Positions 17,768 to 37,060 of a stretch of 64,000 nt of DNA are shown one piece after another. The notes beneath the pieces are model-generated. The model searched no databases and had not been told where the DNA came from. It was given only the letters and a program-made list of their open reading frames with translations. A program made the translations under genes and the position numbers. Origin of the DNA: Pseudofrankia sp. DC12 (lineage in GTDB: Bacteria; Actinomycetota; Actinomycetes; Frankiales; Frankiaceae); the NCBI RefSeq assembly GCF_000966285.1, contig NZ_KQ031391.1, positions 5,456,430 to 5,520,429 on the forward strand. Direction: 5' to 3'. How positions within the stretch are numbered: the stretch's first letter is position 1; each line of letters begins with the position of its first letter.

Positions 17768-17781
17768 ACCAAGCGCTTGGT
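17768..17781 (+). promoter_or_regulatory. KstR2 operator, perfect palindrome
   Basis: ACCAAGCGCTTGGT matches the KstR2 consensus AnCAAGnnCTTGnT at every fixed base and is itself a perfect palindrome. It lies 20 bases upstream of the kstR2-like GTG, between the expected -35 and -10 positions, as for autorepression. Confidence 0.88.
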
Positions 17782-17789
17782 TGACAGGC

Positions 17790-17795
17790 GATAAT
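17790..17795 (+). promoter_or_regulatory. -10 hexamer, leaderless kstR2 promoter
   Basis: GATAAT ends six bases before the GTG at 17802 and there is no Shine-Dalgarno, so transcription should begin at or next to the start codon. Confidence 0.55.
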
Positions 17796-17801
17796 CCTGC
17801 C

Positions 17802-18455
17802 GTGAGCACCTCGTCAACCCGCGCCGGCGGGCCGGGCCGTGGCGGCCGTCTCGGGCGGCCGACCGCCGCGGGGGAGTCGGAGCGGCGGGCGGCCATCGTC
17901 GAGATCGCCGCCGGGCTGTTCGCCGAGCGCGGGTACCGGGCCACCACGGTCCGCGAGATCGCCGACGCCGCCGGCATGCTCTCCGGCAGCCTGTACCACC
18001 ATTTCGACTCCAAGGAGTCGATCATCGATGAGCTGCTGTCGAGCTTCCTCACCGAGCTGCAGGCCGAGTACGCCGCGATCGCGGCTGTCCCGGCGCCGGC
18101 GACCGACACGATCGCCGCACTGGTCCGGTCGGCGTTCGCGGCGATCGCGCGGCACCGGGCCGCCGTCACCGTCTTCCAGAACGAGCGCGGCTACCTCGCG
18201 ACGCTGCCGCGGTTCGGCTACCTGCGCACCTCCGAGGAGGCCAGCCAGCGGCTGTGGCTGGACGCCCTGCGGGCCGGGATCGCCGCCGGTGAGCTGCGTG
18301 CGGACCTCGACCCGAAGCTCACCCACCGGTTCCTGCGGGACGCGATCTGGGTGTCCGTGCACTGGTATCGCCCGGATGGGCGGCTGGCACCGGGCGAGCT
18401 GGCCGAGCATTTCCTCGCGACCGTCTTCGACGGCATCCGCGCCCGGCCCGCGTAG
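17802..18455 (+). CDS. kstR2: KstR2-like TetR repressor of HIP (ring C/D) catabolism
   Basis: 217-residue TetR-family repressor. The DNA-binding half (IVEIAAGLFAERGYRATTV, REIADAAGMLSGSLYHHF, DSKESIIDELL) and the ligand half (FAAIARHRAAVTVFQNE, FLRDAIWVSVHWYRPDG) follow mycobacterial KstR2 (Rv3557c) almost segment by segment. In mycobacteria KstR2 binds HIP-CoA (the CoA ester of the C/D-ring propionate) and controls the HIP genes. Here it is preceded by a perfect KstR2 palindrome and followed by fadE30- and ipdF-like genes that carry another such site. The GTG start fits a leaderless transcript. Confidence 0.9.
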   Translation: MSTSSTRAGGPGRGGRLGRPTAAGESERRAAIVEIAAGLFAERGYRATTVREIADAAGMLSGSLYHHFDSKESIIDELLSSFLTELQAEYAAIAAVPAPATDTIAALVRSAFAAIARHRAAVTVFQNERGYLATLPRFGYLRTSEEASQRLWLDALRAGIAAGELRADLDPKLTHRFLRDAIWVSVHWYRPDGRLAPGELAEHFLATVFDGIRARPA

Positions 18456-18608
18456 CCGGTACCGGCCCGGCCGCACCAGCGGGCACTGGTCGCCGTTTTC
18501 GGAGGTGGTCCTGGTCCGGCTCCGACCGCGCTCCGACGCCGAACCTGCGATCCACAGGCCGCGCGGCGACGCGGACTCGGCCGTGACAGGGCTGGACCGG
18601 AGACCAAA

Positions 18609-18622
18609 ACCAAGCGCTAGCT
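18609..18622 (+). promoter_or_regulatory. KstR2-type operator before fadE30-like gene
   Basis: ACCAAGCGCTAGCT matches AnCAAGnnCTTGnT with one mismatch (position 11). A further GCTTGG follows directly, giving a wider dyad CCAAGC-GCTA-GCTTGG. A TAGCCT hexamer at 18635-18640 lies eight bases before the GTG of the next gene. Confidence 0.65.
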
Positions 18623-18647
18623 TGGGTGAGCGGCTAGCCTGGCTGTC

Positions 18648-19862
18648 GTGGTGTCGACGGTGCGGCCCGCGGCCGCCAGGACAGCCGCCGGCCGGGGTGA
18701 GGCTGGCGAGTCGGCCGGGTTCCGGGCCGAGGTGCGGGGCTGGCTCGCGGACGCCCTGACCGGCGAGTTCGGGGCGGCGCGCGGGCTGGGCGGCCCAGGG
18801 CGCGAGCACGAGGCCTTCGAGCTGCGGGCAGCCTGGGAGCGGCACCTCGCCGCGGCCGGCTGGACCTGTCTGAGCTGGCCGAAGGCCTACGGCGGGCGTG
18901 AGCTTTCGCTGGCCGACCAGGTGGTCTTCCACGAGGAGTACGCCCGAGCCGACGCGCCGGCCCGGGTCGGGCTGATCGGCGACGGCATGGTCGGCCCGAC
19001 GCTGATTGCGTTCGGCACCGACGACCAGCGTCGCCGGTTCCTGCCGCCGATCCGCGCCGGCGCGGCCCTGTGGTGCCAGCTGTACTCCGAGCCCGGCGCC
19101 GGATCCGACCTCGCCGGGCTCAAGACCCGCGCGCACCGCGACGGCGACAACTTCGTGATCAACGGCCAGAAGGTCTGGTCGTCGCTGGCCCACCAGTCCG
19201 ACTGGGGCTTCGCCCTGGTCCGCACCGAGCCCGGCTCGCAGCGTCACAAGGGCCTGTCCTACCTGCTCGTACCGATGCGCCAGCCCGGCATCGACATCCG
19301 CCCGATCGTCTCGATGACCGGGACCTCGGAGTTCAACGAGGTCTTCTTCGACGATGCCCGCACCGACGCGGTGAACCTGGTCGGAGCCGAGGGGGATGGC
19401 TGGACGGTCGGGATGGCCACCCTCGGCTTCGAGCGCGGCACGTTCACTGTCGGCCAGCAGATCGGCTTCAAGCGCGAACTGGAGCGGGTGATCGCGCTGG
19501 CCAGGAGCAACGGCGCCTGGGAACGGCCCGACCTGCGCGACCGGCTCGTCCGGGCCTGGATCGGGGTCGAGATCATGCGGTTCACCGCGCTGCGGACGCT
19601 CGCCGACTCGGCGGCCGACACCCCGCCTGGCCCGGCGGCGTCGATCGGCAAGCTCTACTGGTCCACCTGGCACCAGCAGCTCGGCGAGCTGGCGATGGAC
19701 GTGCTCGGCGCCGCCGGCATGCTCGTCGAGGGCGAGCCGTACGAGCTGCGGCCCGAGCAGTCGCTGTTCCTGTTCAGCCGGGCCGACACGATCTACGCCG
19801 GGTCGAGCGAGATCCAGCGCAACATCATCGCCGAGCGAACGCTGGGGCTGCCGCGTGCCTGA
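18648..19862 (+). CDS. fadE30: Acyl-CoA dehydrogenase, FadE30-like
   Basis: 404-residue FAD-dependent acyl-CoA dehydrogenase. Typical signatures: CQLYSEPGAGSDLAGLKT (FAD/substrate loop), INGQKVWSSLAHQSDW, MTGTSEFNEVFFDD and the C-terminal SEIQRNIIAERTLGLP. Its place between kstR2 and an ipdF-like gene matches Rv3560c (FadE30), which dehydrogenates the propionyl side chain of the HIP-CoA intermediate. About 20 low-complexity residues precede the conserved part; two GTG codons in a row are possible starts and no ribosome site is seen, so it may be leaderless. It overlaps the SDR gene by eight bases. Confidence 0.87.
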   Translation: MVSTVRPAAARTAAGRGEAGESAGFRAEVRGWLADALTGEFGAARGLGGPGREHEAFELRAAWERHLAAAGWTCLSWPKAYGGRELSLADQVVFHEEYARADAPARVGLIGDGMVGPTLIAFGTDDQRRRFLPPIRAGAALWCQLYSEPGAGSDLAGLKTRAHRDGDNFVINGQKVWSSLAHQSDWGFALVRTEPGSQRHKGLSYLLVPMRQPGIDIRPIVSMTGTSEFNEVFFDDARTDAVNLVGAEGDGWTVGMATLGFERGTFTVGQQIGFKRELERVIALARSNGAWERPDLRDRLVRAWIGVEIMRFTALRTLADSAADTPPGPAASIGKLYWSTWHQQLGELAMDVLGAAGMLVEGEPYELRPEQSLFLFSRADTIYAGSSEIQRNIIAERTLGLPRA

Positions 19863-20679
19863 CCCGAAGCTGACCAGGAGCCCCGCCGCGCCGCCGGTTG
19901 TGCTGGCCGCGCCCGAGCCGCCGCCCGGGCGGGACCTGCTGCGCGGCAAGGTCGTGCTGGTGACGGCCGCCGCGGGAACCGGCATCGGGTTCGCGACCGC
20001 CTGGCGGGCGGCGCTGGAGGGGGCGACGGTGGTCGTCTCCGACCATCACGTCCGACGCCTCGGCGAGGCCGCGGCCAGGCTCAAGGACATCGCCGGTGAG
20101 GAGCCGCTCGCCGTCGCGTGCGACGTGCGCAGCGAGGAGCAGGTCGGCGCACTGTTCGACGCCGTCCACGCCACCCACGGTCGGCTCGACGTCCTGGTCA
20201 ACAACGCGGGCCTGGGCGGCGATGTGCCGCTCACCGAGATGACCGACGAGCAGTGGGCGACCGTCCTCGACGTGACGCTCACCGGCACCATGCGGGCGAC
20301 GAGGGCCGCGCTGCGCCGAATGCTGCCGGCCGGCGCCGGGGTGATCGTCAACAACGCCTCCGTGGTCGGCTGGCGGGCGCAGGCCGGCCAGGCTCACTAC
20401 GCCGCGGCCAAGGCCGGCGTGATGGCGCTGACCAGGTGCGCCGCGATGGAGGCCGCGCCCTACGGGGTCCGGGTGAACGCCGTGGCGCCGAGCCTCGCCA
20501 TGCACCCGTTCCTGGCGAAGGTCAGCGACCCGGACTTCCTCGCCGAGCTCGCCAGCCGGGAGGCGTTCGGTCGTCCCGCCGAGCCCTGGGAGGTCGCGAC
20601 CGTCATCGCCTTCCTGGCCAGCGACTACTCCACCTATCTGACCGGCGAGGTCGTCTCCGTCAGCAGCCAGCACCCGTAG
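19855..20679 (+). CDS. ipdF: Short-chain dehydrogenase, IpdF-like
   Basis: 274-residue SDR. NAD(P) site TAAAGTGIG (about residue 40), NNAG loop VLVNNAGLGG, catalytic Ser in NNASVVGW and the YxxxK motif in HYAAAKAG. The whole chain, including SDHHVRRLGEAAARL and the ending YLTGEVVSVSSQHP, follows mycobacterial IpdF (Rv3559c), an oxidoreductase in degradation of the last two steroid rings. The GTG lies within the end of fadE30, indicating translational coupling. The first 30 residues are proline-rich and not part of the fold. Confidence 0.88.
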   Translation: MPDPKLTRSPAAPPVVLAAPEPPPGRDLLRGKVVLVTAAAGTGIGFATAWRAALEGATVVVSDHHVRRLGEAAARLKDIAGEEPLAVACDVRSEEQVGALFDAVHATHGRLDVLVNNAGLGGDVPLTEMTDEQWATVLDVTLTGTMRATRAALRRMLPAGAGVIVNNASVVGWRAQAGQAHYAAAKAGVMALTRCAAMEAAPYGVRVNAVAPSLAMHPFLAKVSDPDFLAELASREAFGRPAEPWEVATVIAFLASDYSTYLTGEVVSVSSQHP

Positions 20680-21051
20680 CGCCCGGCGAGGTGCCCGGTC
20701 ACGGGTCTCACCACGTCCAGTCGTGTTCGGCTACGCGTCCGGTCAGGTCCGGCAGCGAAACGCGAGAGCGGTCCCTACGACCTGATCGCCGCTCGGATGA
20801 CCGTGGCCTGTGCCGCAGCCAGATCGCATACCCAGACGGGGATCTTCGGCCGGTTCGAGCCAGTTGACTGGCCATGATCGCGAACTACGTATGGAGAGAT
20901 GTCGCAAATCGGGCATGGGCTGCCAGTTTCCATACCAAGTCCGCGATCATCGAGCGCCGGAGCGGAGACGCGGGCCGTTGATCGCCAGTTGGGTACGGAT
21001 TTCGGCCTCGCGCGAGGCTCCCCAAGCCGGAACTGGCCGCCCGCCACGCGC
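20680..21051. other. Intergenic region with a long imperfect inverted repeat
   Basis: 372 bases between converging genes, with no gene seen. Arms at 20874-20895 and 20929-20950 (ATGATCGCG...TATGGA and its near complement, about 18 of 22 paired) enclose a 33-base loop. It could act as a terminator or be a small repeat; the function is not known. Confidence 0.45.
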
Positions 21052-25108: not shown

Positions 25109-26335
25109 TCAGACCGTCGCGAGGTAGGCGGCCGTCTTCGCCGGGTCCATGAACCACTCGAAGTAGTCCGGCGGGTTGTCGAAGCCGTTGACGAACCGGC
25201 GGGCGACCGCGTCCTTGGCCTGCGCGGTGCCGAGGATCTGCAGGACGTGCTCCGGTGGCGGCCCGAGCAGCGCGTTGGTCCAGGTGGTGACGAACTGGGC
25301 GTAGGACCAGTAGGTCTCGAACGCGGCGGTCATCCATTCCCGGTCGAACGGCTTGTCGCCGTGAGCCAGGATGCTGTCCAGGTAGGAGACCGCGCACTTG
25401 GCGGCGTTGTTCGAGCCCTGCCCGGTGATCGGGTCGTTGGCGACGACGACGTCGGCCATGCCGAGCACGATGCCACCCGACGGCAGCTCGCCGACCGGCT
25501 GGCGGACCACCGGGGTGTACCCGCCGGCGAGGGTCGCCCGCGCGTCGGTGAGCTCCACGTCCGCGCAGCGCTCGTACTCCCACGGCACGTACGTCTTCAC
25601 CAGCTCCAGCAGCCGGCGCAGGTGCTCATCGGGGTCGGGCTGGTCGGCGAAGACGTCCAGCGGCCCGCCGGGGACGCCCTCGAAGAACAGGATGTCGCAG
25701 TTCCCGCTCAGCGTGTACGACGGGATCACGAACAGCTCGCCGGCGCCGGGGGCGATGTTGAACCGGACCCCCGGGTTGTCCGGGTGCTCCGGGCGCGGCG
25801 CGAGGCCGTGCACGTACGCCAGCGACAGCGCGCGCTGCGGGGCGGTGAACGGCGAGCGCTCCGGGTTCCGGTCGAACAGCCCGACCAGCTCGCCCTTGCC
25901 CGCCGCGACGACGACGAGGTCGTAGTGGTTGGTCAGGGAGTCCAGGTCGCCGGTGGTGACGCCGTGGATGATGAGCTTCCCGCCGCGCTGTTCGAACAGC
26001 TCGATCCAGCCGGCCATCTTCACCCGCTGGTCGATGGACTGGCAGTAGTGGTCGAGCCTGCCGAAGAAGTCCAGCGCCCGGCTGCCATCCGGGGCCAGCA
26101 CGGAGACGCCGAGGCCCTCGATCTTGACGGCGTCGGACTCCCAGAGGTTCAGCTGGTGGTCACGCTCGTGCTGCAGCGAGGTGTGGAACATCGCCTGCGT
26201 CGACATGACCCGCCCGCCGCGGATCTCCTCCGGCGTCCGCGCCGACATCACGGTGACGTCGTATTCATGTTCCTGGAGCATCAGGGCAAGCTGCAGCCCG
26301 GACTGGCCAGCCCCAACGACCAGCACTTTACGCAT
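25109..26335 (-). CDS. StyA-like FAD monooxygenase (styrene/indole monooxygenase family)
   Basis: 408-residue flavoprotein with an N-terminal GAGQSGLQLAL (residues 8-18) FAD site, VVVAAGKGE, and PITGQGSNNAAKCA near the flavin ring, all typical of the two-component styrene/indole epoxidases (StyA), which take reduced FAD from a separate reductase. No reductase gene is nearby. The ATG lies within the end of the GTPase gene (eight-base overlap), so it is co-translated with the conservon. In known conservons the fifth gene is often a cytochrome P450; here the slot is filled by a flavin monooxygenase. Substrate unknown. Confidence 0.85.
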   Translation of the reverse strand: MRKVLVVGAGQSGLQLALMLQEHEYDVTVMSARTPEEIRGGRVMSTQAMFHTSLQHERDHQLNLWESDAVKIEGLGVSVLAPDGSRALDFFGRLDHYCQSIDQRVKMAGWIELFEQRGGKLIIHGVTTGDLDSLTNHYDLVVVAAGKGELVGLFDRNPERSPFTAPQRALSLAYVHGLAPRPEHPDNPGVRFNIAPGAGELFVIPSYTLSGNCDILFFEGVPGGPLDVFADQPDPDEHLRRLLELVKTYVPWEYERCADVELTDARATLAGGYTPVVRQPVGELPSGGIVLGMADVVVANDPITGQGSNNAAKCAVSYLDSILAHGDKPFDREWMTAAFETYWSYAQFVTTWTNALLGPPPEHVLQILGTAQAKDAVARRFVNGFDNPPDYFEWFMDPAKTAAYLATV

Positions 26336-26981
26336 GTGTTCGTGCCTTTCTTAGCTCCGGCGTCTCGGTCAGCGACAACGTGTACAGCACGAGCTCACGC
26401 AGGGTTTGCACAGTGGACGCCGGATCGCGGGCGTCACAGGTGACCAGCGGTGTTCCCGGCCTGAGAGCCAGTGCGTCGCGCACTTCGTCCAGGTCGTGCC
26501 AGAGCTCTCCGTCGAATCGGTTCACAGCGACGATGAAGGGCACGTCGGCGTCGTTCTCGAAATAGTTGATCGCCGCGAATGACTGGTCGATCCGGCGGGT
26601 GTCCACCAGGACGATGGCGCCCAGCGCGCCGCGCGACAGGTCGTCCCACATGAACCAGAACCGCGCCTGCCCCGGCGTGCCGAACAGGTACAGCACGAGA
26701 TCCGAGTACAGCGTGATCCGGCCGAAGTCCATCGCGACGGTGGTCGTCAGCTTGCCGTTCGGCGGCAGGTCGTCGACGCGCTCGCTGGCCTCGGTCATCC
26801 ACGCCTCGGTGTTGATGGGCGGCACCTCGGACACCGAGCCGACGAAGGTGGTCTTCCCGACGCCGAACCCACCCGCGACGACGATCTTCGCCGAGATGGT
26901 GAGCGGGCCGGCGGAACCGCCGTCGGCTGGCTGGCCACCCTGGTACGACCCGTTGCGCTGGCTCATCTCGGCAGGGCTCAC
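26328..26981 (-). CDS. Conservon Ras-like GTPase (CvnD-type)
   Basis: 217-residue MglA/Ras-like GTPase. P-loop GGFGVGKTTFV (about residue 35), switch II LFGTPGQARFWFMWDD with the usual conservon change from DxxG to GTPG, and base-recognition VNRFDG. It has no lipid-anchor signal. GTG 26981 is preceded by AGGA at eight bases. It should partner the roadblock protein (27560) and receive signals from the kinase (28013). Confidence 0.92.
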   Translation of the reverse strand: MSPAEMSQRNGSYQGGQPADGGSAGPLTISAKIVVAGGFGVGKTTFVGSVSEVPPINTEAWMTEASERVDDLPPNGKLTTTVAMDFGRITLYSDLVLYLFGTPGQARFWFMWDDLSRGALGAIVLVDTRRIDQSFAAINYFENDADVPFIVAVNRFDGELWHDLDEVRDALALRPGTPLVTCDARDPASTVQTLRELVLYTLSLTETPELRKARTHA

Positions 26982-27106
26982 GTCCGTGTTCCTAGTTTCA
27001 TGGCGCCTGATTTCCTGGCGTGGGTCTCGAAGTAGCTCTCACACAGTGCCCGGACCGGCCCGGGAGATAACAGGAAACGGTACTCCGGTGATCCGTCCGG
27101 TGCTTC

Positions 27107-27520: not shown

Positions 27521-27559
27521 GATCCTCTGGTCGTCTCGACGCGAGCGGCCGGCCGGGGC

Positions 27560-28003: not shown

Positions 28004-28012
28004 GTGGGGTCC

Positions 28013-29293
28013 TCAGTCCGCTCGCTCGTCGCGGGCGGCGCGCTCGCCTTCGGAGAACGCGCCCAGATCCGCCAGTAGTTTCCTGTGGCCGACCGTCGGG
28101 TCGGCGGCCTCGGCCGCGCCCTCGGGTGATCCCGCCCCGGCACGCGCGCCGATGGCGTCCCCGTACGTGTCCCGCAGGCTGTGCGAAACCCGGCGTGGCA
28201 GTCCGCTGGCGGTGGTACCCGCCGACGCCGCTGCCGGCGGCGGCGGGCTGGCCGGCGCCGGCTCGGCGCGCCGGGCGGCCGGTCGCCCGGCGTTTCGCGT
28301 GCTCACGGCGGTGGGCCGGGAGCCGGCATGCCCGTTCAGCGGGGTGGTCGCCTGGACGTCCTCGACGTCGCCGGACCGGCCGGGACTGTCGGTGCCCGCC
28401 GGCACCGACACGGTCTGCAGGCCGGACCAGCCGGCGTCCGGCAGCTCACAGACCAGCGGCGCAGGCAGCAGCACCGAGCCGGTGGTGCCGTGCGGATGCC
28501 GGTGATCCAGCCACACCTTGATCCCGTGCCGGGTGGCGAGCCGGCGGACCACGGCGAGCCCCATGTGCCGGACCGCGTCGTCGTCGAGTACGGGATCCGC
28601 CGTGAGCCGCTGGTTGATCTGGCGCAGCCGGTCGGCCGGCAGCCCGATGCCCTCGTCCTCGATCCGCAGCAGCGCGCTGCCGGTCTCGGTGAGGTGGGCG
28701 CCGACCCGGACCGGCGAGTGCGGTGGGGACGACTTCGTCGCGTTGTCGAGCAGCTCCGCGAGCAGGCGGCTGACGTCCTCGGCGGCGAACCCGACGACCC
28801 CGAGGTTGACGACCCGCCCGACGGTGACCCGCTGGTAGTGGTCGATCGACGACATCGCGCCGCGGATCACGTCGATCAGCGAGGACGTCTGGGAGCCCTG
28901 CTCGCCGGCGTCCCGGCCGGCGAGCACCCGCAGGTTCTCGGCGTTGCGGCGCAGCCGGGCGGCCAGGTGGTCGAGTCGGTAGAGCTCGGCCAGTCGGTCG
29001 GCGTCCTCCTCGCGCGACTCCATCTCCTCCAGCTGCGCGAGCAGCGTGTCGACCAGGTTGAGGTCCCGCAGCGCGAGGTCGGCGCAGATCGCCGACAGGG
29101 CCTCCTCCGCCGGACTGGGCGTGGCCGCCGCGCGGGCGCCGGGCACCCGCGACCCCGCGGGTGCCTGCGTTCGGCCGGATCGCGCGGGCGTCGAGCGGGT
29201 GGGCGGTGGCGCGAGCAGCTGCGCGGCCGCCTCGCGGGAGCCGCCCAGCAGCGCACGTGACCGGTTCAGGAGTTCCCGAGCGCGCGTCGTCAT
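28013..29293 (-). CDS. Conservon histidine kinase, short soluble form (CvnA-type)
   Basis: About 426 residues. The dimerisation/H-box is YRLDHLAARLRRNAENLRV (about residues 115-133) and the ATPase has LLDNATKSSPP (N-box), EDEGIGLP (G1) and HMGLAVVRRLATRHG (G2). A disordered Ala/Pro tail of about 130 residues follows. Unlike standard CvnA proteins it has no signal anchor, transmembrane helices or nitrate-sensing extracellular domain, so it should be cytoplasmic. ATG 29293 is preferred; GTG 29335 in the same frame would add 14 residues. It heads the minus-strand operon. Confidence 0.87.
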   Translation of the reverse strand: MTTRARELLNRSRALLGGSREAAAQLLAPPPTRSTPARSGRTQAPAGSRVPGARAAATPSPAEEALSAICADLALRDLNLVDTLLAQLEEMESREEDADRLAELYRLDHLAARLRRNAENLRVLAGRDAGEQGSQTSSLIDVIRGAMSSIDHYQRVTVGRVVNLGVVGFAAEDVSRLLAELLDNATKSSPPHSPVRVGAHLTETGSALLRIEDEGIGLPADRLRQINQRLTADPVLDDDAVRHMGLAVVRRLATRHGIKVWLDHRHPHGTTGSVLLPAPLVCELPDAGWSGLQTVSVPAGTDSPGRSGDVEDVQATTPLNGHAGSRPTAVSTRNAGRPAARRAEPAPASPPPPAAASAGTTASGLPRRVSHSLRDTYGDAIGARAGAGSPEGAAEAADPTVGHRKLLADLGAFSEGERAARDERAD

Positions 29294-29335
29294 ACCAGCC
29301 TGGATGCTCCTCGTCGTGCGGGGCTTTTTTTCCAC

Positions 29336-29781: not shown

Positions 29782-30792
29782 TCAGCCAGTGGGAGCGGCC
29801 TCGGCGGCGACGCGGGGAAGCACGTTCTCGGCGAAGAGGCGCAGGCTTTCCCAGCCGCGCTCGGGCGGCATTCCGCCGCACAGCGGATGCAGCACGGTCA
29901 CCGGCCCCAGCTCGCCGGGCCCGGCGGACAGTCCCCGCCGCACGCATTCGTCCGGCGTCAGAATCCGGTAGCGGCCCTCGGCACGCAGCTCGTTGACGGT
30001 CGTCGCGTGCGAATGCGCGGCCGAGGTCTGTCCCTCCGGCTGCCAGGACGAATACAGCGTCGCCTCCGCGAGAAAGTGCTCGCCGAGCTCCGCCCACGCC
30101 TTGTCAGGGTCTTCGGCGACGTGCACGAACGCCGTTTCGGTCGGCGGCATCACGACGAAACCGGACGTGCCCTGCTGGGTGCACTGCTCGTAGTAATAGG
30201 CCTCCAGCTCGGGCAGGTTGTTCGCCGGGCACAACGGCAGCCCCAGCCGGGCCGCCCGGCGCGCCGAGACCTTCGCCGAGCCGCCGACCCACAGCAGCTG
30301 CGCGGGCGGGCTCGCCGGTGGTGGCGTCACCCGGACCGTCCGGCCGCGGTACTCGAACGGCTCCCCGGTCCACGCGGCCAGCACCGCGGTCAGCGACTCG
30401 TCCATCAGGGCCCCACGCCTCGACCAGTCCAGCCCCGCGTCCGCGTACTCGAGAGGGCGGTAGCCGAGGCCGGCGACCGCGGTGATGCGCCCCCGGCCGG
30501 CCAGGTCGAGCACCGCGAGCTGCTCGGCCAGCCGCAGCGGGTCGCTCAACGGCACCAGCAGGGCCTGCACGATGACGTGGACCCGCTTCGTCGCACCGAG
30601 GATGAGGCCCGCGTTGACCAGTGGCGCCGGGCTCCAGCCGTTGTCGGCGCCGTGGTGCTCCTCCAGCGACACCATCGGGATCCCGGCCGCGTCGGCGTAG
30701 CCGGCCATCTTGATGCCGGCCTGGTAGGCCGCGGCGAGCCCGCCCCGGTCGAGCCCGGGCACCGCGAAGTTGAACCGCAGCACAGAAAGCAT
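29782..30792 (-). CDS. LLM-class (luciferase-like) flavin/F420 oxidoreductase
   Basis: 336-residue TIM-barrel oxidoreductase. SLEEHHGADNGWSPAPL (the EHH motif of the group), VIVQALLVPLSDPLRLAEQL and ITAVAGLGYRPLEYA identify it. It lies 31 bases behind the SDR gene and so belongs to the operon divergent from ipdABC, under the KstR2-type site at 31971. LLM enzymes are common in actinobacterial steroid clusters, but the reaction of this one is unknown. Confidence 0.87.
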   Translation of the reverse strand: MLSVLRFNFAVPGLDRGGLAAAYQAGIKMAGYADAAGIPMVSLEEHHGADNGWSPAPLVNAGLILGATKRVHVIVQALLVPLSDPLRLAEQLAVLDLAGRGRITAVAGLGYRPLEYADAGLDWSRRGALMDESLTAVLAAWTGEPFEYRGRTVRVTPPPASPPAQLLWVGGSAKVSARRAARLGLPLCPANNLPELEAYYYEQCTQQGTSGFVVMPPTETAFVHVAEDPDKAWAELGEHFLAEATLYSSWQPEGQTSAAHSHATTVNELRAEGRYRILTPDECVRRGLSAGPGELGPVTVLHPLCGGMPPERGWESLRLFAENVLPRVAAEAAPTG

Positions 30793-30823: not shown

Positions 30824-31732
30824 TCAGGCGCCGTAGACCGGTTCGGCCGGGGGAGCGGTGGCGAGCAGCTTGTCGACGGCGGCCCCGACCTGGGCCGTCT
30901 CCCAGCGGGCGCCGCGGTCGATCGGCACCCCGTGCCGCCAGCCGCTCGCGACGGCGAGCTTCCCGCCCTCGACCTCGAAGACCTGTCCGGTGACGTGCGC
31001 GGAGCGCTCGCTGCCCAGCCACACCACCAGCGGCGCGATATTCGCCGGGTCCATCGCGTCGAAGCCGGACTCGACCGGCGCCATCGTGTCGAAGACGCCC
31101 TCGGTCATCCGGGTCCGTGCCGACGGCGCGATGGCGTTCGCCGTCACCCCGTAGCGGGCCAGCTCGGTCGCGGCGATCAGCGTCAGCGCGGCGATCCCGG
31201 CCTTCGCCGCGCCGTAGTTGCCCTGTCCGACGCTGCCCTGAAGGCCCGCGCCGGAGCTGGTGTTGATGATCCTGGCGTCCGGGCGCCGCCCGGCCTTCGC
31301 CTCGTCGCGCCAGTAGGCGGCGGCGTGCCGCAGCGGCGCCGCGTGCCCCTTGAGGTGGACGCGCACGACCGCGTCCCACTCCGGCTCGGTCATCGAGACG
31401 AGCATCCGGTCGCGCACGAAGCCGGCGTTGTTGACCAGCACGTCGAGCCGGCCGAACGCGTCCAGGGCGGTGCGCACCAGTGCCTGGGCCCCGGCCCAGG
31501 CGGCGACGTCGTCGGTGTTCGCGACCGCCTCGCCGCCGAGGGCCCTGATCTCCTCGACGACGCCTTGCGCGACGGGCTCGCCGGCGGCGGCGCCGTCAGC
31601 GGCCACCCCGACGTCGTTGACGACCACCCGGGCGCCCTGGCGGGCGAACTCCAGCGCGTGCGCCCGGCCGATGCCCCGCCCCGCGCCGGTGACGATCACG
31701 ACCCGTCCGGCACAGACCCCGTCCTCGCTCAC
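30824..31732 (-). CDS. Short-chain dehydrogenase (Rv3548c-like)
   Basis: About 302 residues. NAD site VTGAGRGIGRAHALEF, NNAG loop, Ser in INTSSGAG and YxxxK in NYGAAKAG. The extended C-terminus ending in a small-helix domain is as in the SDRs beside ipdAB in mycobacteria (Rv3548c). The GTG at 31732 gives the family N-terminus; the open frame upstream to 31861 crosses a dispersed repeat and is probably not translated. First gene of a two-gene operon with the LLM gene; promoter shared with ipdA. Confidence 0.87.
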   Translation of the reverse strand: MSEDGVCAGRVVIVTGAGRGIGRAHALEFARQGARVVVNDVGVAADGAAAGEPVAQGVVEEIRALGGEAVANTDDVAAWAGAQALVRTALDAFGRLDVLVNNAGFVRDRMLVSMTEPEWDAVVRVHLKGHAAPLRHAAAYWRDEAKAGRRPDARIINTSSGAGLQGSVGQGNYGAAKAGIAALTLIAATELARYGVTANAIAPSARTRMTEGVFDTMAPVESGFDAMDPANIAPLVVWLGSERSAHVTGQVFEVEGGKLAVASGWRHGVPIDRGARWETAQVGAAVDKLLATAPPAEPVYGA

Positions 31733-31780
31733 GGCATCCCGAGTTCGCTCCGTCGCTTCGCTCTTGGCGCGGCTGTCCTC

Positions 31781-31824
31781 CGGGGTTCCTGCGGGATCGG
31801 CGAAGCCGATCTCGTAGGTCCGCC
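31781..31824 (+). repeat. Dispersed repeat, copy 3 (GATCGGCGAAGCCGAT core)
   Basis: GGGGTTCCTGCGG, then GATCGGCGAAGCCGATC, then TCGTAGGTC: the same order as copies 1 and 2. It lies 50 bases upstream of the SDR start. Confidence 0.62.
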
Positions 31825-31970
31825 TCGGACGTCCGCTCCGCTCGCTCACTCCTGCGCTCACGGTGCGGCCACCCCTTCGCTCTCGGCTGCGTCGCGGCCC
31901 GTGGCCGCGTGGTCCGCCGGCCCGTCATCTCCGCGCGGTGGCCGTCGACGGCTGGTAACTTACCCGACCA

Positions 31971-31984
31971 AGCAAGCGCTTGTG
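31971..31984. promoter_or_regulatory. KstR2-type operator between SDR-LLM and ipdABC operons
   Basis: AGCAAGCGCTTGTG matches AnCAAGnnCTTGnT except for the last base; the inner CAAGCGCTTG is a perfect palindrome. It lies 56 bases before the ipdA ATG and about 240 before the divergent SDR start. Confidence 0.72.
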
Positions 31985-32039
31985 TTACGTACGCCGTGCG
32001 GTCCGGACACCGGCCGCACGCTCGGCTGAGGGGCGGTTG

Positions 32040-32921
32040 ATGGGTGCGAAGCTGACGACGATGAATGCCGCCGTCGCGGCGGTCGAGAGCGGGATGACCG
32101 TCGGCATCGGCGGCTGGGGCTCGCGCCGCAAGCCGATGGCCCTGATCCGGGCGCTCGCCCGCGGCCCGGCCACCGACCTGACTGTCGTCACCTACGGCGG
32201 CCCCGACGTCGGCCTGCTCGCTGCCGCTGGGAAGATCCGCGTGCTGGTCAGCGGGTTCGTCTCGCTCGACTCGATCGCGCTGGAGCCGCACTTCCGCGCC
32301 GCCCGTCAGCGCGGCGAGATCGAGTTCCGCGAGCTGGACGAGGGCATGCTGCAGTGGGGCCTGCTCGCCGCCGCGCACCGGCTCCCGTTCCTGCCGATCC
32401 GGGCCGGCCTCGGCTCGGACGTCCCGACGACCTTCCCCGGCCTGCGGACCGTCACGTCGCCCTACCCGGACGGCGAGGAGCTCGTCGCCGTGCCGGCGCT
32501 TACGCTCGACGTCACGTTCGTGCACGCCAACCGGGCTGATGCCGCCGGTAACGCGGCGTTCCTCGGCCCCGACCCGTACTTCGACGACCTGTTCTGCCTC
32601 GCCGCGCGCCACCGGGTGCTGTCCTGCGAGCGGGTGGTCGAGACCGCCCAGCTGACGAAGGAAGCCCCGGTCCAGGCGTTGCGCATCAACCGGATGATGG
32701 TCGACGCGGTTGTCGAGACGCCGAACGGCGCCCACTTCACCAGCTGCGTGCCCGACTACGGCCGCGACGAGGCGTTCCAGCGTGCCTACGCGGCCGCGGC
32801 GGGCGGCGGCTCGGACTGGGCCGCCTTCCACGAGCGGTACCTCTCCGGCGACGAGGCCGCGTACCAGGCCGCGGTCCAGGCCCAGCGGCCGCTTAGGGGC
32901 GAGAAGGAGACCGCTCGATGA
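32040..32921 (+). CDS. ipdA: IpdA, alpha subunit of COCHEA-CoA hydrolase (CoA-transferase fold)
   Basis: 293-residue family-I CoA-transferase-like subunit. The segments MTVGIGGWGSRRKPMALIRA, LTVVTYGGPDVGLL, ELDEGMLQWGL, LPFLPIRAGLGSDV and NRMMVDAVVETPNGAHFT follow mycobacterial IpdA (Rv3551). IpdAB uses the CoA-transferase fold to hydrolyse a ring: it opens the last steroid ring (C) of COCHEA-CoA. ATG 32040 is chosen for AGGGG six bases upstream and the family N-terminus. Its stop overlaps the ipdB start (ATGA). Confidence 0.93.
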   Translation: MGAKLTTMNAAVAAVESGMTVGIGGWGSRRKPMALIRALARGPATDLTVVTYGGPDVGLLAAAGKIRVLVSGFVSLDSIALEPHFRAARQRGEIEFRELDEGMLQWGLLAAAHRLPFLPIRAGLGSDVPTTFPGLRTVTSPYPDGEELVAVPALTLDVTFVHANRADAAGNAAFLGPDPYFDDLFCLAARHRVLSCERVVETAQLTKEAPVQALRINRMMVDAVVETPNGAHFTSCVPDYGRDEAFQRAYAAAAGGGSDWAAFHERYLSGDEAAYQAAVQAQRPLRGEKETAR

Positions 32922-33736
32922 CGCGGCCCGACGCGGCCCCGGCGCGGCCGGTGCAAGGACCTGGCGGGCTGGTGGCCCGCCGGGCCGACGTCTGCGCGCT
33001 GGCGTGTGCCGAGGCCTTCCGCGGCGCCGGCGAGATCCTCGCCAGTGCCTTCGGGACCGCGCCCACGCTCGGGGCCCGGCTCGCCCGCCTGCTGTTCGCC
33101 CCCGAGCTGTTGCTCTCCGACGGCGAGGCCATGCTTCTGGCCAACACGCCGCCGCTGGGCGCGCCACCGTCGGACGCGGTGGTGGAGGGCTGGCTGCCGT
33201 TCCGGTCCGTGTTCGACGTCGTGGCCGCCGGCCGCCGCCACGTCATCATGATCCCGTCGCAGCTCGACGCCTACGGCAACATGAACATCTCCGTGGTCGG
33301 CCCGCACGCCCGGCCGAGGGCCCAGCTCATCGGCACCCGTGGCGCCCCGGGCAACACCGTCAACCACCGCACCAGCTACTGGGTGCCCAGGCACGGGCCG
33401 CGGGTGTTCGTCGAGCGCGTCGACGTCGTCTGCGGCGTCGGCTACGACCGGGCCCGCGCGGCCGGGCCGTCCGCCGTCCGCTTCCACGGCCTGGGCCGGG
33501 TGGTCACGGACCTCGCCGTCCTCGACTTCGCGAGCCCCGACAACCGGCTGCGGCTGGCCTCCGTGCACCCGGGCGTGACCGTCGACGAGGTCCTCGCCGC
33601 GACCGGTTTCCCGCTTGTCCTGCCGGCTGCTGGCCAGGCGGCCGTACTGGTGACGCCGACGCCGACGCGTGCCGAGCTGGACCTGCTCGACCTCCTCGAC
33701 CCCAGGGGCCTGCGTTACCGCGAGGTGGCCGCGTGA
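32918..33736 (+). CDS. ipdB: IpdB, beta subunit of COCHEA-CoA hydrolase
   Basis: 272-residue partner of IpdA. RADVCALACAEAFRGAGEIL, RRHVIMIPSQLDAYGNMNIS, GTRGAPGNTVNHRTSYWV and VDVVCGVGYDRAR follow Rv3552. It is about 20 residues longer at the N-terminus than the mycobacterial protein (Pro/Ala-rich). It overlaps ipdA by ATGA and ipdC by GTGA, so all three are co-translated. Confidence 0.93.
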   Translation: MTRPDAAPARPVQGPGGLVARRADVCALACAEAFRGAGEILASAFGTAPTLGARLARLLFAPELLLSDGEAMLLANTPPLGAPPSDAVVEGWLPFRSVFDVVAAGRRHVIMIPSQLDAYGNMNISVVGPHARPRAQLIGTRGAPGNTVNHRTSYWVPRHGPRVFVERVDVVCGVGYDRARAAGPSAVRFHGLGRVVTDLAVLDFASPDNRLRLASVHPGVTVDEVLAATGFPLVLPAAGQAAVLVTPTPTRAELDLLDLLDPRGLRYREVAA

Positions 33737-34854
33737 GTGGTGACCCGCGCCTCGAGACGGCGTTCACCCAGCTGACCGGGGCGCGGTACCCGATCGTCCA
33801 GACCGGGATGGGGTGGGTGTCCGGCGCCCGGCTGACCGCGGCCACCGCCGCCGCCGGCGGGCTGGGGATCCTCGGCTCGGCGACGATGACGCTCGACGAG
33901 CTGGCCACCGCCATCCGGACGGTGAAGGAACGCACCGACGCGCCGTTCGGCGTCAACCTGCGGTCCGACGCCGAGGACGTCGAGGACCGGGTCGCGCTCA
34001 TGGTCTCCGAAGGAGTGCGCGTCGCGTCGTTCGCGCTCGCGCCGCGCAAGGACCTGTTCGCCCGGCTGCGCGAGGCCGGGATCGTGACGATGCCCTCCGT
34101 CGGGGCCCGCCGGCACGCCGAGAAGGTCGCGTCCTGGGGTGCCGACGCGCTGCTCGTCCAGGGCGCGGAGGGCGGCGGGCACACCGGCGCGGTCCCGACG
34201 TCGCTGCTCGTCCCGCAGGTCGTCGACGCCGTCGACATCCCGGTGATCGCCGCTGGCGGCTACCTCGACGGCCGCGGCCTCGTCGCCGCGCTCGCCTACG
34301 GCGCAGCCGGCATCGGGATGGGCACCCGGTTCCTGCTCACCGCGGACAGCACGGTCGCCGACACCGTCAAGGCGCACTACCTGGCCGCCGGGGTCGACGG
34401 CACGATCGTCACCACGCGGGTCGACGGAGTGCCGCACCGGGTGCTGCGGACCCCGCTCGTCGATGGGCTGAACTCGGCCGGTCCGCTCACCCGGCTCCCG
34501 CGCGCGATCCGCAACGCGGCCGCGTTGCGCCGGGCCTCGGGCGCGACCTGGCGCGGGCTGATGCGCGAGGGCCGGGCGCTGCGCTCCCACGGCGGGCTGA
34601 CCTGGAGCCAGGTGCTGATGAGTGCCAACACCCCGATGCTGTTGCGCGCCTCCATGGTCGAGGGCCGCGACGATCTCGGGCTGATGACGTCCGGCCAGGT
34701 GGTGGGCCTGATCGACGATCTGCCGACTGTCGACGAGCTGGTCGGCCGGATCGTCGCGGAGGCGGCCGCCGTCCTCGACCGGCTCGCGGCTCCCGGTGCC
34801 GGCGCGCCGCTGCGGCCGGCGCGGCCGATCACCGTGGCGCCGGAGCCCGGATGA
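33733..34854 (+). CDS. ipdC: IpdC, nitronate-monooxygenase-like flavoprotein
   Basis: 373-residue FMN-binding TIM-barrel protein of the nitronate monooxygenase/enoyl reductase II family. Signatures: YPIVQTGMGWVSGARL, VQGAEGGGHTG, VIAAGGYLDGRGLVAALAYG and GIGMGTRFLLT. It corresponds to mycobacterial IpdC (Rv3553), needed to prepare the C/D-ring intermediate for ring opening. GTG 33733 overlaps the ipdB stop; the frame is open far upstream (through ipdAB) but only as a shadow. It overlaps the next gene by four bases. Confidence 0.92.
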   Translation: MSGDPRLETAFTQLTGARYPIVQTGMGWVSGARLTAATAAAGGLGILGSATMTLDELATAIRTVKERTDAPFGVNLRSDAEDVEDRVALMVSEGVRVASFALAPRKDLFARLREAGIVTMPSVGARRHAEKVASWGADALLVQGAEGGGHTGAVPTSLLVPQVVDAVDIPVIAAGGYLDGRGLVAALAYGAAGIGMGTRFLLTADSTVADTVKAHYLAAGVDGTIVTTRVDGVPHRVLRTPLVDGLNSAGPLTRLPRAIRNAAALRRASGATWRGLMREGRALRSHGGLTWSQVLMSANTPMLLRASMVEGRDDLGLMTSGQVVGLIDDLPTVDELVGRIVAEAAAVLDRLAAPGAGAPLRPARPITVAPEPG

Positions 34855-35354
34855 GCGAGTCGGCGCCGTCAGCGGCAGCCGGAGTCCCGATGAGCGAGCC
34901 GGCGCCGCTCGTCCTGACCGGCGCGGACGCGGTGCGCGCGGCGGTCGGCCGCGAGCTCGGCCCGGCCGGGCCGGTGCTCGTCGGCCCCGACCGAGTCGAG
35001 GCATTCGAGACCGCCACCGGCCGGTCCGCCCGGCCGGCCGGCCCGCCGTCGACCTGTGCCGGGCCGACGACCGGTCGGGCGGTGCCGAAGCTGCTGCTGC
35101 TGTCGCTGGTGAACGACGTGCTGCCCCGGCTCGTCGACGTCCGCGGCTTCGCGATGGGTGTCAACTACGGCACCGGCCCGGTGTACTTCCCGGCCGCACT
35201 GCCGGTCGGCGCCGCCTTCCTCGGCCGCCTGGTGATCGTCGACGTTGCCGACGTCCCCGGCGGCCTCCAGGCCACCTTCCGGGTCACTCTCACCACTGGC
35301 GGCACCGGCCATCAGGTGTGTGTCGCGGACAGTCTCGCGCGCTACCTGTTCTAG
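34851..35354 (+). CDS. Degenerate MaoC/NodN-like hot-dog protein
   Basis: 167 residues. The second half (LLLLSLVNDVLPRLVDVRGF, MGVNYGTGPVYFPAALPVG, then VIVDVADVPGGLQATFRVTL and CVADSLARYLF) is that of the NodN/MaoC acyl-dehydratase group. The catalytic part, a D-x4-H motif followed by AHG, is missing: the chain goes straight from ETATGRSARPAG to GRAVPKLLLLSL. It is therefore probably not a hydratase by itself. It is the last gene of the ipdABC operon (ATGA overlap), so a structural or partner role there is possible. Confidence 0.75.
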   Translation: MSESAPSAAAGVPMSEPAPLVLTGADAVRAAVGRELGPAGPVLVGPDRVEAFETATGRSARPAGPPSTCAGPTTGRAVPKLLLLSLVNDVLPRLVDVRGFAMGVNYGTGPVYFPAALPVGAAFLGRLVIVDVADVPGGLQATFRVTLTTGGTGHQVCVADSLARYLF

Positions 35355-35589
35355 CGGCCGCGCGCGCACCCGCCCGGCTGCGACGGCGGGCGTCGTCAAC
35401 GCCCGCGGGGCCGCGCGCTGGCCTGGATGCCGCTGCGCCCGAGCTGGCGGGTCGTGTCCGCGTTCGTCGTGGGACCTTGCCGTCTGGAGCGTGCTGGTCA
35501 ACCTGTGTCTTGGCCTCGCGAATCCTTTTCGCCGTGGGCCCACTCTTATGGGGGTGTCGTACGCATCGAGCCGGACGGGAGGGCGGGGC
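35355..35589. other. Intergenic region after the ipd operon
   Basis: 235 bases, no gene seen. GGGAGGG at its end is a good ribosome site for the short frame beginning at 35590. Confidence 0.45.
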
Positions 35590-35691
35590 ATGAGCGGTGC
35601 CGAGTGGGCCAGCGCGCAGCTGATCGCCGCCGCCCGGGACGGCCACGTCGAGCCGCTGACCGCGCTGGTCGCGAACACTCATCCGCATGCA
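35590..35691 (+). pseudogene. Possible N-terminal remnant of an ECF sigma factor
   Basis: An ATG with a strong GGGAGGG ribosome site starts MSGAEWASAQLIAAARDG and LTALVANTHPHA, which resembles the first 33 residues of ECF sigma factors (ELIAAARDGD...LV). The similarity stops there; the frame then runs through the redoxin gene out of phase. It looks like a truncated gene whose promoter and start now precede the redoxin frame. Confidence 0.35.
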
Positions 35692-36058
35692 CGTGTTGCT
35701 GTACTTCATGCGCGCCGCGACCTGCGCGGTGTGCGTCCGGCACGTCCGCGACCTGGCTCGGCACGCCGACGACTACGCCGCCCTCGGGGCCAGCATCCTG
35801 GTGGCGGTACCGGAGGGGCTGCCGACCGCCCGCGAGTGGGCAGCCTGGCAGCGCCTGCCGTTCCCGGTCGTGACCGGGGCGCATGGCAGCCCCCACGAGG
35901 CGGTCGGCCTACCGCGCGCGATGTTCGGGGCCGTGCAGCGGTCCGGCACGGTCCTGGTCGACCGGGCCGGACTCGTCCGGTACGCGAAGGCCGCGACGAT
36001 GCCGACGGCCGGCTACGACCGCCCGGCGGTCCTGCGCGCCCTGGACGCGCTGTGGTAG
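35687..36058 (+). CDS. Redoxin/AhpC-TSA-like protein
   Basis: 123 residues of thioredoxin-like fold. LLYFMRAATCAVCVRHVRDL puts a CxxC at residues 13-16 straight after the first strand; PFPVVTGAHGSPHEAVG and SGTVLVDRAGLVRYA follow in the order seen in peroxiredoxin-like redoxins. The N-terminal strand is missing compared with family members, and no ribosome site precedes the ATG, so either the gene is 5'-truncated or it is reached by frameshift from the sigma-like frame. Confidence 0.65.
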   Translation: MHVLLYFMRAATCAVCVRHVRDLARHADDYAALGASILVAVPEGLPTAREWAAWQRLPFPVVTGAHGSPHEAVGLPRAMFGAVQRSGTVLVDRAGLVRYAKAATMPTAGYDRPAVLRALDALW

Positions 36059-36354
36059 CCACCATCGCCAAGGCGGCCGGTGTGGCCCTCCGTCACCGCC
36101 AGGAGCGGCCCTCCGGGCAGCCCCGCCACGCCAGGACGGCGCTCCCGGGGGCGTCATGCCCTGGGTGCGGGCTCGCGGCCGCACGCATCCGAGCGACTTA
36201 GGCAACAGATTGGACCAGTATGCCCGTCACTCTGCGAAGCTGGACCGGGCGGCGGAACGTGCTCCAAGGCACCGGACCGGCGGACGGCGGGCGGGGGCCC
36301 GCCGGCCCGGCGCGACACGGCGCGCGGCTGCGGAGTGGGCCGGGTGGCCTAGAG
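36059..36354. other. Intergenic region before kstR
   Basis: About 296 bases, no gene seen. Confidence 0.4.
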
Positions 36355-36368
36355 TAGAACAGGATCTA
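36355..36368 (+). promoter_or_regulatory. KstR operator before kstR
   Basis: TAGAACAGGATCTA fits TnnAACnnGTTnnA with one mismatch (GAT for GTT). The right half merges with TCTAAT (36365-36370), a good -10. The site lies 47 bases before the GTG, as expected for autorepression. Confidence 0.75.
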
Positions 36369-36415
36369 ATTTTTTGGGGTCGGCGGTTGCGCCGAGCGCC
36401 AGTGAGGAGGCCCCG

Positions 36416-37060
36416 GTGAGCGAGGCGGTGGCCGCGGCGGCCACGCCGCCGGCGAAGGGCGTGCCCGCGACGACGGCGACTCCCTCCCAGCAGGCGCGCC
36501 GGGAACGCATGCTTTCCGCGGCGCTCGCCCTGGCCAGCCGCGGTGGCTACGACGAGGTGCAGATGCGCGAGGTGGCCGAACAGGCCGGGGTCGCGCTGGG
36601 CACCCTGTACCGGTACTTCCCGTCAAAGGTGCACCTGCTCGCCTCGGCGCTGGCCCGTCACCTGGCCGGCCTTCGCGACGCGGTGCTCGACCAGCCGTCC
36701 GGCTCCGACGACCCGGCGACCAGGGTGCTGGCGATGATGAACCGCCTGGTCGACGAGCTCAGCCGGGACCGGCTGGTCGCCGAGGCCCTCATCCAGGCGA
36801 TGACGCTGGCGTCAGCGACCATCGGCACCGAGATCGACGACGTCGACGAGGCGATGATCGGTCTGATCGGGGTCGCCGCGTTCGGGTCCGACCACGTCGT
36901 CGACGAGCGGGACAGGCTGATAACCAACATCATCGGCAAGGTCTTCCTCAGCGACCTGCGCTACTGGCTTGGGGACCGGATGACCCTCGACGGCGTCCGC
37001 GCCTCCCTCGGCGACACCGTCGCCGTCGTCCTCGCCGGTCAGCAGGCCCTCGTCAGGTAG
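36416..37060 (+). CDS. kstR: KstR-like TetR repressor of steroid catabolism
   Basis: 214-residue TetR repressor. The DNA-binding part RMLSAALALASRGGYDEVQM, REVAEQAGVALGTLYRYF, PSKVHLLASALARH follows mycobacterial KstR nearly residue for residue, and the C-terminal half (LVAEALIQAMTLASATIGTE, KVFLSDLRYWLG) is of the same type. KstR responds to CoA thioesters of cholesterol side-chain intermediates. GTG 36416 is fixed by AGGAGG five bases upstream; a TTG at 36374 in the same frame is rejected. A KstR-type operator precedes it. Confidence 0.88.
   Translation: MSEAVAAAATPPAKGVPATTATPSQQARRERMLSAALALASRGGYDEVQMREVAEQAGVALGTLYRYFPSKVHLLASALARHLAGLRDAVLDQPSGSDDPATRVLAMMNRLVDELSRDRLVAEALIQAMTLASATIGTEIDDVDEAMIGLIGVAAFGSDHVVDERDRLITNIIGKVFLSDLRYWLGDRMTLDGVRASLGDTVAVVLAGQQALVR

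Follow-up and report, generated by a model that had tools for sequence, protein, structure and literature searches.

Predicted KstR and KstR2 regulons in Pseudofrankia sp. DC12, a genome in which the known ring-A/B module of steroid degradation was not found

We analyzed a 64,000-nucleotide stretch of the Pseudofrankia sp. DC12 genome (the window; positions 5456430-5520429 of a single 6.88-Mb contig, 99% complete) that encodes two steroid repressors, KstR2 and a diverged KstR. Sequence evidence supports two regulons, in which KstR2 boxes mark genes for steroid rings C and D and KstR boxes mark a side-chain and uptake set, and the known ring-A/B enzymes KstD, HsaA, and HsaC were absent at the sensitivity used. 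Steroid pathways are usually described as a whole, from the side chain and rings A/B through to HIP. Both regulators and both ends of such a pathway without the known middle would indicate either a specialist on second-hand sterol fragments or a new kind of ring-A/B opening. From the genes, their boxes, their conservation, and the missing enzymes we infer binding, inducers, transport, and substrate, and we favor, at about an even chance, a scavenger of sterol fragments whose two-repressor network operates without the known ring-A/B module. The nearest named relative compared was Frankia nepalensis CN7 (draft genome), whose KstR2 and KstR are 85% and 91% identical to those of the window. Positions of up to five digits refer to the window and longer ones to the genome.

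The product of the gene at 17802-18455 (forward strand) matched three chains of known structure over residues 15 to 213 of its 217, namely 4w1u with 187.5 bits, 2ibd with 186.4 bits, and 4w97 with 185.7 bits; the next chain reached 99.8 bits. Identity to two of these three chains was 47 to 48%. The chains 4w1u and 4w97 bear the title KstR2; 2ibd, whose title reads only "possible transcriptional regulator," is presumably the Rhodococcus protein. The product of the gene at 36416-37060 (forward strand) matched solved KstR over residues 22 to 208 of its 214 with 112.5 bits, against 68.9 bits for the next chain, and the alignment showed a recognition helix nearly identical to that of solved KstR. 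In a tree, the KstR rows fell on one side (support 100/100) and the KstR2 rows, including the window KstR2, on the other (68/91 only). The tree adds little because its KstR rows were picked by similarity to the window protein and its three other TetR rows are long branches. By these matches, and by the operators described below, the two genes are identified as kstR2, encoding a TetR-type repressor of ring-C/D genes, and as a diverged kstR, as had been proposed in an initial annotation made from the letters of the window. That annotation had also treated the 19-kb closeness of the two repressors as special. This was rejected because the repressors are neighbors in Nocardia farcinica too (NZ_LN868939.1), where they lie 39 kb apart and, unlike in the window, with hsaC between them. 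We also take the two genes to be about as close in M. tuberculosis as here.

The KstR2 operator motif is given as AnCAAGnnCTTGnT in the published account (PMC3068626). This palindrome was present in the promoter of kstR2 itself, where the initial annotation had placed it. With one mismatch allowed, the motif occurred at the level of chance in the genome (126 sites against 147 for the control, which here and below is the reversed pattern counted on the same sequence). The pattern CAAGNNCTTG, with CAAGCGCTTG as its usual core, was found in 47 of 80 kstR2 promoters of other genomes, one of them from F. nepalensis, and its reverse in 1 of 80. The strict core CAAGCGCTTG had three sites in the genome (reversed control, 34), all of them at promoters of ring-C/D (HIP) genes: before kstR2 (predicted operator ACCAAGCGCTTGGT, 17768-17781), between the SDR-LLM (short-chain dehydrogenase/reductase and luciferase-like monooxygenase) genes and ipdABC (predicted operator AGCAAGCGCTTGTG, 31971-31984, a position where F. 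nepalensis also has a core), and some 31 bp upstream of echA20 (1589577). A matrix built from 46 kstR2-promoter sites, none of them from the two Frankia genomes, was then scored over 377 kb of the genome's own stretches, which were partly chosen for containing the echA20 match. The top five sites were those of echA20, kstR2, ipdA/SDR, fadA6 (1600006), and fadE30 (18609-18622, ACCAAGCGCTAGCT/AACCAAGCGCTAGCTTGGGTG). The fadA6 site scored 18.6 bits and the weak fadE30 site 17.2 bits; because the best reversed control also reached 18.6 bits, neither stands out by score alone, and both rest also on conservation in F. nepalensis. In that genome an exact core precedes fadA6, and the AACCAAGCGCTAGCTTGGGTG bases are identical before fadE30 within diverged surroundings. 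KstR2 boxes were found in all five orthologous F. nepalensis promoters that were compared. In DC12 the boxes thus mark kstR2 itself, fadE30-ipdF, SDR-LLM, ipdABC, the echA20 operon, and fadA6, and the targets named initially (fadE30-ipdF by the weak site at 18609; ipdABC and SDR-LLM by that at 31971) are all among them.

The one-mismatch KstR box reported for the kstR promoter was also present (predicted operator TAGAACAGGATCTA, 36355-36368) and is identical in F. nepalensis. Upstream boxes with at most one mismatch were found at 10 of 10 kstR-like genes, which is weak evidence because the reversed pattern occurred in 5 of the same 10 stretches; exact boxes were found at 7 of 10, the reversed pattern at none. 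The loose KstR motif with one mismatch was at chance in the genome (616 sites; control, 586). The stricter TAGAACNNGTTCTA with at most one mismatch had 12 genome sites (control, 6), and 7 of the 12 clustered in a 59-kb span that straddles the left edge of the window (5437329-5495981; 0.85% of the genome; binomial probability 2.5e-12 for a span chosen after looking). These seven are at 5437329, 5440928, 5450835, and 5456286 to the left and at 10484, 36355, and 39539 inside. The remaining boxes are at 1535439, 6035531 (two SDRs), 469793 (a small conserved protein), 1733024, and 6704988. That the boxes exceed chance across the genome, on which the initial annotation depended, therefore held for the strict core and box patterns and failed for the loose one-mismatch motifs, and the latter were dropped as regulons. 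The 3 KstR2 core sites and 12 near-perfect KstR sites provide a short list of candidate genes.

Scored with a KstR matrix, the window sites at 39539 (22.1 bits), 10484 (19.2), 46432 (18.1), and 36355 (16.0) exceeded the best reversed control of the window (14.5), and those at 10748 (14.2) and 10455 (12.1) fell below it. Of the further KstR-type sites listed initially, those at 10484, 39539, and 46432 were thus retained and the other two were not set apart from the control. The box at 39539-39552 is perfect (TAGAACCTGTTCTA), as is one in the divergent F. nepalensis promoter orthologous to it. The boxes at 10455-10497, of which that at 10484 is AAGAACAGGTTCTA and that at 10455 is weak, precede an OB-ltp4-ltp3 operon, and the orthologous divergent promoter of F. 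nepalensis has two boxes. A weak box at 10748-10761 precedes a LIV-type ABC transporter operon. The box at 46432-46445 (TGCAACCTGTTCTA), third in the window by matrix, has two mismatches to the strict consensus, and the orthologous F. nepalensis promoter has no strict box. By tblastn, F. nepalensis had an orthologous gene with an adjoining box for 9 of the 12 KstR sites; no orthologue was found for the cyp125, 1733024, and 6704988 sites in the stretches examined. In total it had 14 sites of the TAGAACNNGTTCTA type (control, 6).

The genes at KstR2 boxes form the ring-C/D (HIP) set. Beside kstR2 lie a fadE30-like acyl-CoA dehydrogenase gene (18648-19862, forward) and an ipdF-like SDR gene (19855-20679, forward; NF005880, 429.7 bits, cut-off 336; 93% identical in F. 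nepalensis). On the reverse strand, the SDR gene at 30824-31861, presumably of the Rv3548c type, matched NF005861 from residue 48 (481.4 bits, cut-off 373) and probably starts near 31720; the LLM gene downstream (29782-30792, reverse; 82% identical in F. nepalensis) scored below the cut-offs of the LLM models. On the forward strand, the product of 31980-32921 gave 352.5 bits to 6con, a CoA-transferase alpha subunit, with glutaconate CoA-transferase as the next kind (86.6 bits), and that of 32918-33736 gave 277.9 bits to the 6co6 beta chain (next kind, 49.2 bits). Taking 6con to be IpdA and the 6co6 beta chain to be IpdB, these margins identify the pair by homology as IpdA and IpdB rather than ordinary CoA-transferases, and ipdA probably starts at 32040, where the IpdA match begins. 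An ipdC-like flavin enzyme gene follows (33733-34854, forward; PF03060, 271.1 bits), overlapped by a gene for a small protein before kstR (34851-35354, forward) without a Pfam match, 62% identical in F. nepalensis. A second KstR2-boxed cluster at 1.589-1.600 Mb encodes EchA20 (NF005925, 418.9 bits, cut-off 260), two acyl-CoA dehydrogenases, an enoyl-CoA hydratase, an SDR, and a FadA6-like thiolase (NF005865, 667.3 bits, cut-off 591). The names EchA20 and FadA6 are assumed from the mycobacterial genes and are supported by position near kstR2 elsewhere.

Gene neighborhoods were counted in the 80 kstR2 loci of other genomes (flanks of at most 10 kb, often cut) at a threshold of at least 35% identity over half of the query. 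Matches near kstR2 were found for FadA6 in 22 loci, IpdA in 21, IpdB and IpdC in 20 each, EchA20 and the SDR in 19 each, and FadE30 in 11 (up to 86% identity), and for the Nocardia proteins HsaA, HsaC, KshA, and KstD in 0 of 80. The ipdF-like SDR had matches in 35 loci, many of which are other SDRs, as the median identity was 37%. With a FadD3-family ligase at 456485 (693.5 bits, cut-off 657), the HIP set present comprises fadD3, fadE30, ipdF, ipdC, echA20, and fadA6, several of them named by context and family rather than by an equivalog model of the same name. In mycobacteria and rhodococci this set is reported to degrade HIP-CoA, which is also described as the KstR2 effector (PMC5380842). 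The repressor, the operator AnCAAGnnCTTGnT, fadE30, ipdF, ipdABC, echA20, fadA6, and the SDR are shared with the mycobacterial/rhodococcal KstR2 regulon. Unlike that regulon, the one predicted here has two boxed clusters 3-4 Mb apart, an unlinked fadD3 without a strict box, an additional LLM and small protein, and a weak fadE30 site. A second FadD3-like ligase gene at 5171014-5172534 gave its match in two segments, one of which contains a TGA, and by eye adjoins two metal-hydrolase-like genes.

The initial annotation had described a side-chain and ring-C/D module lacking linked cyp125. The module was incomplete as described, with the second KstR2 cluster and further side-chain genes at 1.535 Mb lying elsewhere in the genome, and the absence of cyp125 was rejected. 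A P450 gene at 5440942-5442291, 14 kb left of the window and beside the KstR box at 5440928, gave 500.1 bits to 8vxi (CYP125MRCA), 374.1 bits to 2x5l (putative P450 125), and 337.4 bits to CYP124, which identifies its product by homology as CYP125. At 1.535 Mb, the perfect KstR box (1535439) separates two chsE4/chsE5-like acyl-CoA dehydrogenase genes, whose products gave 500.5 and 292.2 bits to the chains of 4x28, which we take to be ChsE4-ChsE5, against 390.5 (Tcur3483) and 261.6 (Tcur3481) for the next chains. Downstream of one of them are genes for an EchA19-like hydratase (395.4 bits, just under the cut-off of 400) and a FadD-like ligase (NF005863, over cut-off). CYP125 and side-chain beta-oxidation genes are thus present in the genome.

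Other genes at KstR boxes are consistent with side-chain trimming and uptake. At the left end of the window, a FadD-type acyl-CoA ligase gene (66-1523, forward; none of the NCBIfam ligase models shown over cut-off) is separated by the perfect box TAGAACAGGTTCTA (5456286-5456299) from a divergent Zn-alcohol dehydrogenase gene with a major-facilitator gene downstream. The ligase orthologue of F. nepalensis likewise has a perfect box upstream, while the alcohol dehydrogenase gene is turned round there and the order of the major-facilitator gene is not kept. The boxes at 10455-10497 precede, on the reverse strand, genes for an OB-fold/zinc-ribbon protein related to the C-terminal domain of ChsH2 (9284-10366; PF01796 and PF12172 over cut-off), a lipid-transfer protein that we name Ltp4-like (7957-9267; NF005924 from residue 59, 429.6 bits, cut-off 419), and a thiolase/lipid-transfer protein that we name Ltp3-like (6806-7960; NF006180, 626.4 bits, cut-off 514; 95% identical in F. 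nepalensis). The LIV-type transporter operon (10861-14739, forward) encodes a fused permease (10861-13104) and two ATPases (13091-13921 and 13918-14739), all below the UrtB, UrtC, LivG, and UrtE cut-offs. The box at 39539 lies between a gene for an F420-type luciferase-like oxidoreductase (38165-39310, reverse; TIGR03619, 115.6 bits, below cut-off) and divergent genes for an aldehyde dehydrogenase (39590-41215) and a Zn-alcohol dehydrogenase (41258-42340), both forward; judged by spacing, a patatin-domain protein gene (42486-44327, forward; PF01734, 42.9 bits, over cut-off) likely shares their operon. The box at 46432 precedes genes for a substrate-binding protein (46630-48054; PF13458) and a FadD8-like ligase (48101-49792; NF004838, 752.6 bits, below the cut-off of 875), both forward. 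Left of the window, the box at 5437329 adjoins a gene for an F420 oxidoreductase of the Rv3520c family (435.8 bits, cut-off 335), and that at 5450835 adjoins a gene for a nitronate-monooxygenase-like enzyme followed by a flavin reductase/IclR fusion (5452063-5453391; 85% identical in F. nepalensis), in which an HsaB-similar reductase (182.1 bits, below the cut-off of 230) is joined to a weak IclR C-terminal match.

The ring-A/B enzymes were searched for with one Nocardia farcinica protein each as query for KstD, HsaA, and HsaC, reference names that we assigned from the sequences. The initial annotation had found kstD, hsa, and mce4 missing from the window. They are, and the genome-wide searches at the sensitivity used found no KstD (FAD-motif fragments only, at most 24.3 bits over about 50 residues), no full-length HsaA (best 24.6 bits), no full-length HsaC (best 21 bits), and no Mce/MlaD-domain protein (PF02470; 4 of 14 control genomes were positive). 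For KshA and HsaD the search covered the window plus 30 other loci of the genome (0.43 Mb counting overlaps, 6% of the genome) and gave no match. Of 36 other genomes with KstR2, 13 gave full-length relatives in the HsaC search (46 to 83% identity), and the Nocardia record yielded the query itself; for HsaC and KstR, the genomes of 38 of 81 kstR2 loci were searched, picked to spread genera. The lack of mce4 had been counted among the signs of a possibly different entry route; as such a sign it was rejected, because this lack is described as normal outside mycolate bacteria (PMC4810484). Shared with the mycobacterial/rhodococcal KstR regulon are the box at kstR itself, cyp125, the chsE4/E5-like and ltp-like genes, and the Rv3520c-family F420 oxidoreductase; unlike there, no KstD, HsaA, HsaC, or Mce was found here, and KstR is diverged.

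The F. nepalensis draft showed no HsaC (best 26.7 bits). Among the 11 genomes whose KstR relatives scored highest (at least 109 bits), an HsaC relative of at least 50% identity was found in 7 and not in F. nepalensis and three Streptomyces, a split that is weak because most of these genomes are drafts. The three, Streptomyces SPB162, NBC_00154, and S. natalensis, have KstR2 and a KstR relative with no close HsaC found, and a HIP cluster was seen in SPB162 and NBC_00154. The idea that the KstR score falls where HsaC is missing was dropped, since Streptomyces NBC_01669 combines a low KstR score (195.4) with an HsaC of 50% identity. A survey of more than 8,000 genomes names 16 actinobacterial genera, and its main text does not contain "Frankia" (PMC4810484). 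Our literature search found no work joining KstR2, KstR, and Frankia; the co-mentions of KstR and Frankia were off-subject by title.

In the scheme that we favor, the cell would take up sterol-derived perhydroindanes, with or without side-chain remnants, that are released by other microbes, trim them, and mineralize rings C and D. Mycobacterial KstR is released by a side-chain acyl-CoA, and binding of such a compound would likewise release KstR here from its own gene, cyp125, and the genes for the F420 oxidoreductase, alcohol and aldehyde dehydrogenases, acyl-CoA ligases, lipid-transfer proteins, chsE4/chsE5-like dehydrogenases, the SDR pair, and, weakly, the LIV-type transporter. Binding of HIP-CoA would release KstR2 from the ring-C/D set, by analogy with mycobacterial KstR2. 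Fragment scavenging is favored because KstD, HsaA, and HsaC were not found, and it is supported by the ligases at KstR boxes, the LIV-type transporter at its weak box, and the major-facilitator gene by the boxed alcohol dehydrogenase. A transporter for released perhydroindane metabolites is described in Rhodococcus (PMC8399759), and growth of a streptomycete on HIP was reported by Hashimoto and Hayakawa in 1977, as cited in PMC5380842. If such organisms are fragment specialists, cross-feeding would be testable from genome content.

Several observations weigh against fragment scavenging or the network beneath it. With CYP125 among its members, the side-chain set would suit an intact sterol more than a fragment that others have oxidized beforehand, we know of no HIP uptake system here, and the KstR box of the LIV-type transporter is weak. 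The window KstR scored 155.9 bits on NF033703, under the cut-off of 280 (154.7 in F. nepalensis; 192 to 197 in four Streptomyces; 263 to 266 in Nocardioides and Marmoricola; 331 to 335 in Nocardia, Actinophytocola, a Rhodococcus metagenome-assembled genome, and the M. tuberculosis chain), and the box of the window kstR is not exact. The KstR boxes at 1733024 and 6704988 lie near genes without an evident link; the best KstR-matrix site in the own stretches (24.1 bits, 468257) is two mismatches from the strict box and near an aldo/keto-reductase-like gene; and a site at 5556937, beyond the right end of the window, scored 15.8 bits. Of the seven KstR2 core sites in F. nepalensis (control, 63), two (contigs C99 and C149) are near no pathway gene among those read. 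In addition, fadD3 is unlinked to the clusters and without a strict KstR2 box, and KstD, HsaA, and HsaC had one query each, those for KstD and HsaA without a positive control in other genomes.

The main rival is a degrader of whole sterols that opens rings A/B with enzymes unrelated to KstD, HsaA, and HsaC and passes rings C/D into the KstR2 set, a serious possibility that we nonetheless do not expect. It would account for side-chain and ring-C/D modules standing at KstR and KstR2 boxes. Its candidate enzymes are the KstR-linked F420 oxidoreductases, the nitronate-monooxygenase-like enzyme with the flavin-reductase/IclR fusion, and a StyA-like flavin monooxygenase in the window (25109-26335; NF045732, 240.2 bits, below the cut-off of 550), whose gene is near kstR2 in F. 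nepalensis too (86% identical). To our knowledge none of these is known to open a steroid ring, which counts against the rival. The HsaB-similar reductase occurs without HsaA, as such a route would suggest, but reductases of this type serve many monooxygenases, and in F. nepalensis its gene and that of the nitronate-monooxygenase-like enzyme are on different contigs. We suggest only speculatively that Frankia relatives, and perhaps some Streptomyces, encode a ring-A/B opening other than the KstD/Hsa type in the KstR regulon and that the diverged KstR reads a different inducer.

The same combination of side-chain enzymes present and ring-A/B enzymes not found would also fit trimming of side chains alone, with C19-C22 steroids as end products and the KstR2 set used separately for HIP. 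This seems unlikely, since the interleaving of the two regulons and their conservation in two species point to a single pathway. Still less credible is an ordinary complete degrader with ring-A/B genes that escaped the searches or have diverged too far to be detected. Single queries were used, KshA was searched in only part of the genome, and cholesterol use in Frankia has been proposed from one putative 3-ketosteroid 9alpha-monooxygenase gene said to be carried by F. alni (PMC9956245); against this, the HsaC search listed relatives down to about 25-28% identity elsewhere, and the genome is one contig and 99% complete. The weakest alternative, a decaying remnant after recent loss of the ring-A/B genes, would explain the missing middle module and the diverged KstR. 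Against it, the reading frames are open, F. nepalensis, where no HsaC was found either, has conserved the boxes and the proteins (62-95%), and relatives of both KstR and KstR2 occur in three Streptomyces genomes with no close HsaC found.

Between the StyA-like gene and the SDR-LLM genes, the window has a gene whose product weakly matches small GTPases (21.4 bits, under the cut-off), a pair of short open reading frames, and a histidine-kinase-like protein gene (26328-29335). This order of GTPase-like gene, short open reading frames, and histidine kinase occurs in actinobacterial GTPase operons. The block between kstR2 and ipdA is inverted in F. nepalensis relative to the window. A large amidohydrolase gene (44517-46271; 85% identical in F. 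nepalensis) is divergent from the binding-protein/ligase operon across the KstR-type box at 46432. Outside the window, the KstR-type boxes at 468257 and 469793 lie by the aldo/keto-reductase-like gene (72%) and the small protein gene (79%), and in F. nepalensis the same two genes also adjoin two KstR boxes.

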